From contig JAKQOG010000178.1 of NCBI GenBank assembly GCA_029565395.1, positions 1 through 64,000 of the forward strand: 64,000 bases of DNA, given 5' to 3'. The notes below the pieces were generated by a model that did no database searches, was not told the origin of the DNA, and worked only from the letters and a program-made list of their open reading frames with translations. Numbering within the stretch: position 1 is the first letter of the stretch; each line of letters begins with the position of its first letter. The position numbers were made by a program, and so were the translations under genes. This stretch comes from Candidatus Hydrogenedentota bacterium. Lineage in GTDB: Bacteria > Hydrogenedentota > Hydrogenedentia > Hydrogenedentales > CAILVY01. Below, one piece after another: positions 45,099 to 49,894 of this stretch.

Positions 45099-45908
45099 AT
45101 GGCTCAGAATTTTTTCCTGACGGGGTGCGCCAGCGGAATGGCGCGGCATCTCACCAATGTATTGCAGCAACGGGGGGATTGTGTGTTTGCGACGGATGTG
45201 AATCTGCCGGCGCTGGAACAGGCGGCAAAAGAAATGAACTGGCCGGATGACCGGGTGAAACTACGCGCGCTGGATGTCACGGATTACGAGGCATGGGAGC
45301 GGGTGTTCGCGGAAGCAGTGGAAACGTTCGGGGGGATCGACGTAACGATGAATATCGCGGGGCTGTTGCTTGCATCATGGATACAGGAGTCGCCGCTAAA
45401 GGAGATAAACGGGCAAATCGATGTGAATGTGAAGGGCGTGATTTTTGGAACGAAGGTTTCGGCGCGGCACATGCTGGAGCGCGGGCATGGGCACATCATC
45501 AATATCAGTTCGATTGCGGGGGTGGTGCCGGTGCCGGGGATGGCGGTTTATGCGGCGTCGAAACATGCGGTACGGGCGTATTCGCTTTCGGCGGCGCTGG
45601 AGCTGCGCCCGAAGAACGTGTACGTGACGGTGGTATGCCCCACAACGGTGCAGACGCCGATGCTGGATCATGAAATAAACAATGATGCGGCTGAAATGTA
45701 TTTTTCGGGCATACGCGTGCTGACGGTGAAGCATATTGAAAAGGGCATCCTGCGGGCGTTAAAACGCAAGCCATATCAGGTGCACCTGCCGTGGTTTAAG
45801 ATCAAATTTGTCTCGATCATGGGCTTTATGCCGTGGCTGGGCCCAATTGTGGCGCCATTTTACCGCTGGGGCGGACGGTGGCGGCAGGCGGGCCGGCGCA
45901 AACCTTAA
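45099..45908 (+). CDS. Short-chain dehydrogenase/reductase with membrane-active tail
   Basis: 269 residues from ATG 45099 (AAAGGAGG at 45083-45090). The SDR core is present: TGCASGMARHL (a variant of TGxxxGxG), LDVTDYEAW, NIAGLL, INISSIAG and YAASKHAVRAYS (catalytic Tyr and Lys). The C-terminal 60 residues include a hydrophobic IKFVSIMGFMPWLGPIVAPFY segment and a basic end, as in lipid- or retinoid-type SDRs. A TATAAT at 45065-45070 is a likely -10 box with a poor -35. The 3' end overlaps lexA by 4 bases, convergent. Confidence 0.87.
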   Translation: MAQNFFLTGCASGMARHLTNVLQQRGDCVFATDVNLPALEQAAKEMNWPDDRVKLRALDVTDYEAWERVFAEAVETFGGIDVTMNIAGLLLASWIQESPLKEINGQIDVNVKGVIFGTKVSARHMLERGHGHIINISSIAGVVPVPGMAVYAASKHAVRAYSLSAALELRPKNVYVTVVCPTTVQTPMLDHEINNDAAEMYFSGIRVLTVKHIEKGILRALKRKPYQVHLPWFKIKFVSIMGFMPWLGPIVAPFYRWGGRWRQAGRRKP

Positions 45909-46522
45909 TTCATGCGGCGCTGGAGCGCCACAACGACACCCTGGACGGTTACTTGAGAAGCGGGAAAACGCATGGGCGTCATGGATGAATTTTCGGGACG
46001 CAACTCGACGACAGGTCCAAAGGGGAAAAAGCGTTTAACCGTGGCTTCATTGTCAACCAGGGCCACCACCACATCGCCTGCCCTGGGGATTCGGCTGCGA
46101 TCCACCACAATGATGTCGCCATCGAGGATGCCCGCTTCGATCATGCTGTCGCCTTTGACACGCAGGCAGTACCCTCCAGGGGCTGACATGTTTTTCGACA
46201 GCACAATGTGATCCTCGATGTTTTCCTCAGCGAGTAAAGGCGCCCCCGCCGCCACCCGTCCCACCAGTGGAAGTTCGGATACGCCACTGTTGTATAAGCG
46301 GACAGCGGCTTTTTCCGTCACATGGATGCCCCGCGCCTTGGAGAGGCGCTCGATAAATCCCTTTTTCTCAAGCGCCAACAGATGGTCGCTGACGGCGTTG
46401 GTGGAGGTTATATTGAACTCCGCGCCGATTTCCAAAATGGTGGGAGGACATCCTTTGTCTCGAATGCATTGGATAATATAATCGAGGATATCCCGCTGGC
46501 GTTTGGTAAGTCCTTTAGCCAT
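45905..46522 (-). CDS. lexA: SOS repressor LexA
   Basis: 205 residues from ATG 46522 (AGGAG 7 bases upstream). The winged helix is LTKRQRDILDYIIQCIRDKGCPPTILEIGAEFNITSTNAVSDHLLALEKKGFIER. The self-cleavage site is Ala92-Gly93 in VAAGAP, and the catalytic dyad is Ser126 (GDSM) and Lys163 (ATVKRF). It represses DNA-damage genes until RecA filaments trigger cleavage. The putative own operator is at 46542-46559. Confidence 0.96.
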   Translation of the reverse strand: MAKGLTKRQRDILDYIIQCIRDKGCPPTILEIGAEFNITSTNAVSDHLLALEKKGFIERLSKARGIHVTEKAAVRLYNSGVSELPLVGRVAAGAPLLAEENIEDHIVLSKNMSAPGGYCLRVKGDSMIEAGILDGDIIVVDRSRIPRAGDVVVALVDNEATVKRFFPFGPVVELRPENSSMTPMRFPASQVTVQGVVVALQRRMN

Positions 46523-46541
46523 GACCAAGCTCCTGGTTGCC

Positions 46542-46591
46542 ACTGAATGCTTTTTCAGTAGTATTCAACCATGTTTTTCGCCAGAAGTCAA
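46542..46591 (-). promoter_or_regulatory. lexA promoter with overlapping inverted-repeat operator
   Basis: On the minus strand: TTGACT (46586-46591), 17 bases, TTGAAT (46563-46568). A perfect inverted repeat ACTGAA-N6-TTCAGT (46542-46559) covers the predicted start point. It differs from the E. coli (CTGT-N8-ACAG) and Bacillus (GAAC-N4-GTTC) boxes. Binding by this LexA is inference from position. Confidence 0.6.
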
Positions 46592-46653: not shown

Positions 46654-47862
46654 TTATTCGTAGCGCAAGGCGTCGATGGGGTTTAGGCGGGCGGCGCGAT
46701 AGGCGGGATAGTAGCCGAAGAAGATGCCGACAGCGGCGGCGAAGGTCATGGCAATAATCACGCTTTGTGGCTGGATGAAGGTGCTGAATTGGGTGAAGGC
46801 TCCAATGGTTTTAGCAACGCCAATGCCGCTAAACACACCGATCAGTCCGCCCAGACAGCTCATAAACATGGCTTCAAACAGGAATTGACGGAGGATATCC
46901 CGGTCTTTGGCTCCAATGGCTTTGCGAACACCAATCTCCCGGGTGCGCTCCGTGACGGTGACCAGCATGATGTTCATGATGCCGATTCCGCCAACGATTA
47001 GTGAGATGGCGCCCACACTCCCAAGGAGAATGGTAAGTGCGCGCGTGACGGTCGAAAGGGTCTCCAAAATTTCCGCCTGGTTGCCTATGTTAAAGTCATT
47101 GTCATCTTCGGGTTGAAGGCGGTGGCGGCGTCGGAGCAGTTCCGTTATGTCATCCTGGATTTTAGTGAGATCCGCGCCTGAGACGCCCTGAACATCCACT
47201 TCATTAAAGTGGTCGGTCCCAAGCACCTGCTGCATGGCCGTGGTGTAGGGGATGATAACTTGGTCGTCAGGATCGAACCAGCCCTGATCGCCTTTAGGCT
47301 TGGTTATGCCGATAACTTTGAAATTGAGGCCCTTCACTTTGATGGTGGCGCCCAAAGGCTCATCCTGTACCATAAGATTCTTGACCGTCGTGGGGCCGAT
47401 AATGGCGACCCGGGCCATGCCTTCCGCTTCGTTGTCGGTAAAGAGGCGGCCGCGATCCAGTTCGTAATTGCGGGCGCGAAAATAGGTGCTGACCGTGCCC
47501 AAAACATTAATGGCGCTGTTGTTTTCATAATATTTTACCTGACATCGCCCTTGTACGACAGGCGCCACGGCGAGGACATTGGGGATCTCCGCCAAGATTG
47601 CTTCGGCGTCTTCTTTTTTAAGATTGCGGCGGGCCTCGGACCTTACACCGCCCATGCCGCGTTGTCCCGGCCGAATCATCAGCAGATCCGTGCCCATGGA
47701 CTTGAGCCGCCCCACTACTTCATTTTTTGTGCCCGCACCGATGGCGAGCATGGCGATCACCGCGCCGACGCCGATGATGACGCCAAGCACAGCGAGAAAG
47801 GAGCGGAGTTTATTCGCCCAAAGGCTCTTAAGCGCGACTTTCAAAACAATCAGGAAGTACAT
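46654..47862 (-). CDS. MacB-type ABC transporter permease
   Basis: 402 residues with the FtsX/MacB topology: one N-terminal span ([26 protein letters not shown]), a large periplasmic MacB_PCD domain, then three spans with [29 protein letters not shown] and the closing [17 protein letters not shown]. It is the membrane subunit of a MacA-MacB-TolC efflux or lipid export pump. The start lies 13 bases inside the end of the ATPase gene, so the pump genes are coupled. Confidence 0.92.
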
Positions 47863-48539
47863 ACCGCCTCTTCCAGGGTGGATTCTACGATGCGCCCGTC
47901 ATGAAGACGGATAATGCGCCGGCAATGCTGTGCGATATCGGGTTCATGAGTCACCAGAATAATGGTGTGCCCTTGTTCGTTCAGGGTGTGGAACAGAACC
48001 ATGATTTCCTCGCCGGTTTTACTATCAAGATTTCCCGTGGGCTCGTCGGCCAATACAATGGCAGGACTCGTAACAATGGCACGGGCAATGGCGACCCGCT
48101 GCCGTTGTCCGCCCGACAATTGATTGGGTTCGTGGTGCATGCGGTCTTCAAGACCGACAATGCGCAAGGCATCGATGGCTTTACCCGTTGCGCGGTGCAT
48201 CCCGGCGTAGAGAAGGGGAAGTTCAACGTTTTCCAGCGCCGTCAGGCGCGGGAGCAGATTGAAGGTTTGGAAGACAAAACCAATGTGCCGGTTGCGGATG
48301 TCTGCAAGGCGATCACGGCTAAGACCCGCCACATTCTCGCCTGCGAGAACGTACGTCCCCGTATCAGGCTGATCGAGACAGCCCAGAATATGCATCAGGG
48401 TGGATTTTCCACTGCCGGAGGGACCGGTTATGGCCACCATTTCCCCTTCATTAATATCGAGGTTTACCCCCGCAAGAGCATGAACTATGCTCCCGCCCAG
48501 TTCATACGACTTCTTCACGGCCCGCGCTTCGATAATCAT
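47850..48539 (-). CDS. MacB/LolD-type ABC ATPase
   Basis: 229 residues. Walker A is GPSGSGKST near residue 38, signature LSGGQRQRV near 140, Walker [13 protein letters not shown] near 160, His loop VTHEPDIAQ. It is of the LolD/MacB subtype that works with single FtsX-like permeases. It starts on the last base of the adaptor stop codon (TGATG) and overlaps the permease gene. Confidence 0.95.
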
Positions 48540-49894
48540 CAGTGGCGGCCTCGCATGGGCGGTCCGGGCATCAACAAGCCCCCCCGGACCCGCGGGGTGT
48601 TAGAGGAATTGCGCCATTGGCTTTCCTCTTCTGTGTTCTGATAAATAACCGTGGCGTTCTCCTGAAGCCCGGTTTTGATTTCAATGTCGCTCCCGCTGTT
48701 TATTCCGGTCTCCACGGGAACATCTTCCTGGATACTTCCATCCGGCTTCCTGACCTTCACAAACGTCTTGCCCCGGTCTTTGCGATACACTGCACGAAGC
48801 GGAACGAAAAGGGCATCCTCATTTTCCGCCACCACGATTTCAACATTGGTGGTCATTTCCGGCTTAAGAAGCGCCTTGTTGTCACTGAGAACCTCAATGC
48901 GCACTTCAAACGTAACTACGTTGGAGACATTGATGCCCTTCGCGGCAATCCGCACGACCTCCCCGGTAAATCTCTTGCCCCGGTAGGCGTCCGCCGTGAT
49001 ATTGACCCTCTGGTCCAGCGCAACATTGCCAATGTCGCTTTCATCCACCGAGGCAAGGACAAAGATCCGGGAAAGATCCGATACCGTCAACACAGTGGTG
49101 CCCCCCCCCACATTGTTGATGCCCGATGCAATGATCTGCCCCGTTTGCACGTTGCGCGCGGACACCACCCCGTCTATGGGCGCCATCACCTTCGTCTCGC
49201 TCAACCGTTGGTTGGCAAGGGACAACGCAATCGTGTCGGTATCCACATCCGCCTGGGCAAGCGCGATATCCTGGCGGCGGACTTCCAGTTGAAGCTCAAG
49301 CGCCTTGATGGATTCCACCTGGGCTTCCGCCGTCTGCAGATCCTGCTTGGCTTCAATGGCAGTGGTATCCGCCGTTTCAGCCTGTTCCACGGTAGACTGT
49401 TTCCGGGCGAACAGTTCCTGCTCGCGCTTCGCTTTGGCGTTGGCATCCTTTACTCTTGCTTGGGCGGAGTTCACGCTGGCCGCGGCGCGTTGCTTTTCCA
49501 CCACAAGATTTTGTTCCGCCACCGCAAGGTTGGCCTTGGCTTGGGAAAGCTTGGCTTGACTGGCCGCAAGGGCTGCTTCGCACTGTTGCAGCGCCCGCAA
49601 CTGATCCACCGGGTCGATTTCCAGCAGGAGATCGCCCTGCTTGACCGGATCGCTGACATCATAGGGAAGTTTCACGACCAATCCGCTGGCCTTGCATTTG
49701 ATTTCAACATCCAGATTGGACACAACCCGGCCGGTACACTGCACCGTCTGATACAAGGGGCCGCGGGTCACCATGGCCGATTTGATTTCTTCCGCAGTTC
49801 CATTGGCGGCCGCGCTCTTTGTTTTCCAATAATAAGCACCGCCACCACCCAGTATTATCGCCCCCGCAACAACACAAAGCACTACTTTCTTCAT
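48539..49894 (-). CDS. Periplasmic adaptor (membrane fusion protein), MacA-like
   Basis: 451 residues. An N-terminal membrane anchor is followed by a lipoyl-like half ([11 protein letters not shown].. near 60), a long Ala/Gln/Lys-rich coiled-coil hairpin (residues about 100-220), the second lipoyl half ([20 protein letters not shown]) and beta-barrel domains. It links the MacB-type pump to the outer-membrane channel. The start overlaps the Spy-like gene stop by 4 bases. Confidence 0.92.

Follow-up and report, generated by a model that had tools for sequence, protein, structure and literature searches.

CTGAA-N6-TTCAG, a palindrome conserved before SOS genes, as the predicted LexA operator of the Hydrogenedentota

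The window, by which we mean the whole analysed stretch of 64,000 nucleotides from a Candidatus Hydrogenedentota genome, carries a lexA gene on its minus strand. In the direction of lexA the predicted promoter consists of TTGACT, 17 bp, TTGAAT, 3 bp, ACTGAAAAAGCATTCAGT, AGGAG and ATG. Read on the forward strand, ACTGAAAAAGCATTCAGT is ACTGAATGCTTTTTCAGT. This palindrome is perfect (6+6) and lies past the -10, before the start codon of lexA. An earlier sequence-only reading had reported this palindrome at lexA, with a -35 before the gene; both were confirmed, the former at 46542-46559 and the latter as TTGACT at 46586-46591. The features are:

46586..46591, minus strand: predicted -35 TTGACT, 17 bp from the -10; TTGACA in many relatives
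46563..46568, minus strand: predicted -10 TTGAAT, matching the consensus in 4 of 6 positions; TTCAAT or TTAAAT in relatives
46542..46559, minus strand: candidate LexA operator (SOS box) ACTGAAAAAGCATTCAGT in lexA sense, assigned from sequence and phylum footprint
46543-46558, minus strand: core of the box, CTGAA-N6-TTCAG, within ACTGAAAAAGCATTCAGT
46530..46534, minus strand: Shine-Dalgarno-like AGGAG, assigned from sequence
45905..46522, minus strand: lexA, 205 aa, with ATG at 46520-46522, stop at 45905-45907 and the coding part without stop at 45908-46522

The protein matches TIGR00498 with 194 bits (cut-off 110.95) and contains a LexA DNA-binding domain (PF01726) and an S24 peptidase domain (PF00717), both above the Pfam cut-offs, so that its fold is evident from the sequence. 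The closest named relatives, with 67, 67 and 60% identity, come from three Candidatus Hydrogenedentota genomes, and a tree of 132 LexAs unites the 55 from Hydrogenedentota in one group (support 100/99, with a bootstrap that had not fully settled). Aligned with E. coli LexA, all 55 full-length LexAs of the phylum have the Ala-Gly cleavage site and the catalytic Ser motif; the Lys was recognized by pattern in 54 and by eye in the 55th (G023). These are the self-cleavage residues of LexA named in the excerpted text of PMC3091678. Upstream of lexA, also on the minus strand (46654-49894), lie ORFs that by eye resemble a MacB-type permease, an ABC ATPase and a membrane-fusion protein.

In the same genome the box CTGAA-N6-TTCAG, with at most one mismatch, precedes lexA, recA, dinB and the gene of a Hel308-like helicase. 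The copies before recA and other SOS genes that were to be looked for if the palindrome is an SOS motif are thus present: GTGAATAAATTTTCAG follows TTGACA-N17-TATAAA in the recA promoter, CTGAAAATAATATCAG lies in the promoter of the dinB-type gene, and CTGAAAAAAGTTTCAG fills the 17-bp spacer of the helicase promoter (TTGACA-A-CTGAAAAAAGTTTCAG-TATACT). The helicase, an 870-aa protein encoded on contig C85 (L338:1552-4164), belongs to a very uniform predicted SOS target of the phylum; its best NCBIfam matches are Hel308-type models, below their cut-offs, and its C-terminus resembles an OmpR-type winged helix, with a score slightly below the Pfam cut-off.

Counts within the single genome say little. 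In the window only the exact copy stands out, since the four sites found with up to two mismatches (mean of the shuffles 1.56) were matched by 9 of 100 shuffles. The exact 18-mer occurs twice in the 7.55-Mb genome, in the promoters of lexA and the helicase. With up to one mismatch it is uninformative within one genome, giving 10 sites versus 8 for the reversed control. Three of eight 1-mismatch copies were inspected and none was taken up, L003 and L004 lying within ORFs and L009 directly before a gene without a link to the SOS response evident by eye. The shorter CTGAA-N6-TTCAG has four exact copies (lexA, helicase, C228 and C275), and at one mismatch 183 sites versus 80 for the reversed control. 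This is about one site per 41 kb, so that a given 200-bp interval would contain one by chance in about 0.5% of cases. The exact 16-mers on C228 and C275 were left uncounted as regulon members; the gene behind the first has no Pfam match and the second lies inside a coding region. RTGAA-N6-TTCAGT has four matches in this genome versus three for its control, one of the four being that at recA.

Where the statistics of one genome are thin, the comparison across the phylum decides. LexA was searched in 68 genomes and 57 lexA promoters were read; the set omits G009 (an N-terminal fragment, at which an exact box was seen), the second LexA-like genes G016b, G024b, G035b, G061b and G067b, the umuD matches, and G014, which has umuD matches only. 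CTGAA-N6-TTCAG is present exactly in 48 of the 57 promoters and with at most one mismatch in 56, as compared to 0.05 and 0.55 after dinucleotide shuffling. At one mismatch a spacer of N5 was found in none of the 57, a spacer of N7 in one and the reversed pattern in none. Positions T2, G3, A5, T12, C14 and A15 of the box are invariant in 57/57, and in 33 of the promoters the end of the predicted -10 has a constant position, four bases separating it from the C of CTGAA. Eleven of the 57 (G003-G005, G010, G011, G020, G022, G023, G026, G032 and G038) have an additional TTCAG half-site, 14-15 bases further downstream than the TTCAG of the box itself.

The recA promoters carry the box at one mismatch in 48 of 54 cases (0.30 after shuffling) and the inner core TGAA-N6-TTCA exactly in 52 of 54 (shuffled 0.25); in the two others (G057 and G067) it was below threshold. 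This set omits G045, where recA lies 25 bases from the contig end, the fragments in G026, G064 and G020, and genomes with only weak matches. The predicted -10 ends 2-12 bases ahead of the box in 46 of 52 promoters, and the first base of the box is G rather than C in 39 of 52. Many recA boxes (e.g. L093) have G first and TTCAGTA on the other side, a conserved asymmetric arrangement. As predicted from these sequences, the recA operator would be conserved and lopsided, and perhaps weaker.

Before the helicase gene the box is exact in 34 of 57 promoters and has one mismatch in 17 and two mismatches in five, the last promoter being cut by the contig end; these counts, which amount to 51/57 with at most one mismatch, have no shuffle control, and 13 of the 57 were entered as exact from the pattern search. 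The helicase set omits G007 and G037 (no N-terminus) and G025, G026 and G030 (weak matches only) and retains G061 with just 41 bases upstream. All eight umuD genes are preceded by the box at one mismatch, six of them by an exact copy (a G055 match containing stop codons was omitted). There are 16 imuA cassettes, the heads of which were assigned by their place before imuB. One (G059) was unreadable and three (G024, G061 and G067) are headed by a second lexA, here called lexA2; among the 12 readable cassettes without lexA2 at the head the box is exact in 11 and below threshold in one. The dinB-type polymerases, taken from 56 genomes with a PF00817 match and comprising at least 30 loci (G010 with only 218 bases upstream), have the box with at most one mismatch before 18 of 30 genes; in the 12 others it was below threshold.

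Taken over all 68 genomes, the exact 18-mer occurs 73 times, the reversed control 6 times. From 58 of these sites that were examined with BLASTP, 41 precede genes for the helicase (21), a dnaE-type polymerase (9), LexA (5), UmuD (3) and ImuA (3); the 15 sites outside these 58 are SOS promoters already known here, which brings the total to 56 of 73. The remaining 17 lie before other genes or inside genes, two of them before radical SAM genes. Exact boxes in G014 (L316), G023 (L320), G039 (L324) and G049 (L330) precede the genes of a UDG-linked radical SAM protein (TIGR03916, above the cut-off), a PA0069-like radical SAM protein (below the cut-off and partial), a DnaQ-like exonuclease and a protein of 165 aa that matches no NCBIfam model.

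How does the box relate to the LexA operators already described? The SOS box of beta- and gamma-proteobacteria is given as CTG(TA)5CAG, i.e. CTGT-N8-ACAG, in the excerpts of PMC3108266 and PMC3091678. The E. coli box and the phylum box are both 16-bp palindromes of equal dyad spacing with CTG...CAG ends and the same role; they differ in the fourth base of the half-site, which is T in E. coli (CTGTA) and A in the phylum (CTGAA), and the recognition helix of LexA is SPNAAEEHL in the former and STNGVNDHL in most genomes of the latter. CTGTA-N6-TACAG was found exactly in none of the 57 lexA promoters and with at most one mismatch in three. The Gram-positive box, CGAAC-N4-GTTCG (PMC3091678, excerpt), has by our own comparison an inner frame identical to that of the phylum box, GAAC-N4-GTTC being a form of GAA-N6-TTC, whereas the half-sites of the phylum box are TGAA/TTCA rather than CGAA/TTCG, with a C/G pair on the outside and without the fixed inner C and G. 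Exact GAAC-N4-GTTC is present in 0/57 lexA and 2/54 recA promoters. At one mismatch it is found in 22/57 and 23/54, respectively, versus 3.5 and 2.75 after shuffling, an excess that we would ascribe in part to the GAA-N6-TTC frame common to both boxes and in part to promoter sequence conserved close to the -10. With no exact match at any of the 57 lexA promoters for either, we rejected both the E. coli and the Gram-positive box as the identity of the motif.

The third relative is the SOS box of Myxococcus xanthus, CTRHAMRYBYGTTCAGS, whose LexA in gel shifts bound the lexA and recA2 promoters, pafBC weakly and recN not; the excerpted part of the same paper reports direct repression for only five genes and no box at recA1 or uvrA (PMC9705874). 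The right half TTCAG and the half-site spacing are common to both boxes, and two Myxococcales LexAs (L059 and L089) have the helix STNGVNDHL found in most LexAs of the phylum. The M. xanthus box lacks symmetry, its left half being degenerate and the base before TTCAG always G, whereas the palindrome of the phylum is symmetric; at the window site the full M. xanthus consensus is not matched, A standing before TTCAG and T after it. Four of five Myxococcota-like lexA promoters viewed have GTTCAG repeats 18-19 bases apart.

By 2021, 17 distinct LexA motifs had been counted (PMC8565304, excerpt). Those named there, TTAC-N3-GTAA, GGTT-N10-AACC, GTTC-N7-GTTC, CTAA-N5-TTAG and GGA-N5-TCC, all differ from CTGAA-N6-TTCAG, as does the Balneolaeota motif, which according to the excerpt of PMC7739468 is a direct repeat. 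The lineage-specific motifs described in PMC8565304, as far as its excerpt goes, likewise combine a changed operator with lexA, recA and translesion polymerases as targets. Outside the phylum the box was found exactly in one of 77 lexA upstream regions, some of them short, and with at most one mismatch in three; the exact copy lies before lexA in L026, a genome labelled Deltaproteobacteria. The earlier statement that the palindrome matches neither the known proteobacterial nor the Gram-positive boxes holds letter by letter and fails for the frame, since the dyad frame of E. coli, the GAA-N6-TTC of Gram-positive bacteria and the TTCAG of M. xanthus are all kept. The suggestion of a lineage-specific SOS motif agrees with the same box before SOS genes throughout the phylum, and has to be qualified by the deltaproteobacterial copy. 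By its letters, the box would be a lineage form of a familiar element, the LexA operator, intermediate between three known ones. The literature searched contained no earlier description of CTGAA-N6-TTCAG for Hydrogenedentota; key motif papers lay outside the search, and absence from print is unproven.

In E. coli LexA the residues contacting DNA are Ser39, Asn41, Ala42, Glu44 and Glu45 (PMC3091678, excerpt), which align to S40, N42, A43, S45 and D46 in the window LexA. The helix of the phylum is mostly STNGV(N/S)DHL. Of the genomes with Asp where E. coli LexA has Glu45, 52/52 have C...G as the outer bases at lexA; four genomes of one genus (family f5) have Gly instead, a lexA box that starts with G, and GTGAA-N6-TTCAC before recA; the single genome with Ala has a C...G lexA box. 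Ala instead of Gly at position 42 occurs in five genomes, three of which have a CTGTA or TACAG half in the lexA box, as compared to 0/52 genomes with Gly42, and in one of the five (G039) the helicase gene is preceded by CTGTAAAAATATACAG, the E. coli form. These helix/operator pairings are suggestive, position 45 more so than position 42. The outer base cannot be set by the helix alone, since the recA boxes begin with G in 39 of 52 promoters, most of these genomes having Asp45. As to position 42, Ala in place of Gly as the cause of CTGTA halves was suggested by the lexA boxes and is weakened by five Gly42 genomes (G023, G036, G046, G055 and G063) whose helicase boxes have one CTGTA or TACAG half.

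In G024 (L269), G061 (L273) and G067 (L270) the gene at the head of the imuAB cassette encodes a second LexA. That of G067 matches TIGR00498 with 151 bits (cut-off 110.95), and its helix is FRAIETAREHL, that of the two others FRAVQ(S/T)AREHL. The promoter of the second LexA contains the palindrome ACCAGACA-N2-TGTCTGGT, with one mismatch in G024, which fills the 17 bp separating -35-like and -10-like hexamers; the main-type box at one mismatch was not found at these three lexA2-imuAB loci. Within the 68 genomes exact copies of the second palindrome are confined to G061 and G067, and G024 alone has it at one mismatch; at two mismatches it is in the background (37 sites in total versus 43 for the reversed control). 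A second LexA with an unrelated palindrome fits the published idea, as given in the excerpt of PMC8565304, that duplicated LexAs diverge in operator. A further LexA-like protein, of 216 aa and with the helix GVGSTRTVHRYL, is encoded in G035 (contig C7; L152/L420); neither the main box nor the second palindrome was seen in its promoter.

From the sequence of the box, its place in the predicted promoters, its conservation before SOS genes and a LexA whose cleavage site and Ser/Lys pair are intact, we propose that CTGAA-N6-TTCAG is very probably the LexA operator of the Hydrogenedentota. A LexA dimer would bind the box with one recognition helix per half-site and block RNA polymerase, just past the -10 at lexA and recA and in the -35/-10 spacer at the helicase gene and several imuA. 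Upon DNA damage RecA filaments would trigger the self-cleavage of LexA at the Ala-Gly bond, after which lexA, recA, dinB, umuDC, imuAB, the gene for the dnaE-type polymerase and that for the Hel308-like helicase should be induced.

It is conceivable, and in our view very unlikely, that a different regulator binds the palindrome and happens to control lexA together with other repair genes. One would be led to it by the ten of the 68 genomes in which the DNA-binding domain of LexA was not detected: the box is retained at recA in all seven of these in which recA could be read, and G002 and G014 are without the domain, yet have intact boxes at recA and other genes. In these two, which are 93% and 96% complete, respectively, LexA is likely missing through assembly gaps, a true loss being the less likely alternative. 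Several points argue against another regulator. The box is the only one common to lexA and the core of classical SOS genes; LexA is the regulator expected to control its own gene; in the genus in which the LexA helix has Gly45 the lexA box shifts in its outer base; and the half-site is shared with the box that M. xanthus LexA bound in the gel shifts (PMC9705874, excerpt).

Still less probable, to the point of being hardly credible, is that the box is a core-promoter feature such as an extended -10 or a certain spacer composition rather than an operator. Its right half does touch the -10 (TTCAG-TATACT) in the promoters of the helicase and of several imuA, and TATACTGAA overlaps the -10 in some lexA promoters. 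A core element would, however, keep one register, whereas the box fills the -35/-10 spacer at the helicase gene and several imuA and lies just past the -10 at lexA and recA; moreover, both half-sites are conserved together with their N6 spacing. That the palindrome stands ahead of lexA by chance, as the count of 10 versus 8 in one genome might have allowed, is refuted by the phylum as a whole, in which 56 of 57 lexA promoters have the box versus 0.55 after shuffling, and has a negligible probability.

If CTGAA-N6-TTCAG is the LexA operator, the Hydrogenedentota may have kept working intermediates of LexA-operator evolution, in which single changes in the helix shift the box, lexA2 took over imuAB and the helicase was added. 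The box would join the outer CTG...CAG of E. coli to the inner GAA-N6-TTC of Gram-positive bacteria; residue 45 would determine which bases bound the lexA box, and Ala for Gly42 would ease the step to CTGTA halves; a second LexA with its own palindrome would have taken over imuAB in some lineages; and the Hel308-like helicase would be the most uniform of the added SOS targets. We regard this scenario as possible but rather doubtful, and rate it somewhat lower than we did at first because of the CTGTA/TACAG halves in the five Gly42 helicase boxes.

Begun from one promoter, the analysis yields a prediction of the SOS regulon for a whole phylum that is known here from draft genomes. It names the Hel308-like helicase as a steady predicted SOS gene of the Hydrogenedentota; in the literature searched, no paper combined Hel308, LexA and the SOS response. 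With a shared dyad frame and operator variants side by side, the change of a LexA site under a kept regulon becomes directly testable.
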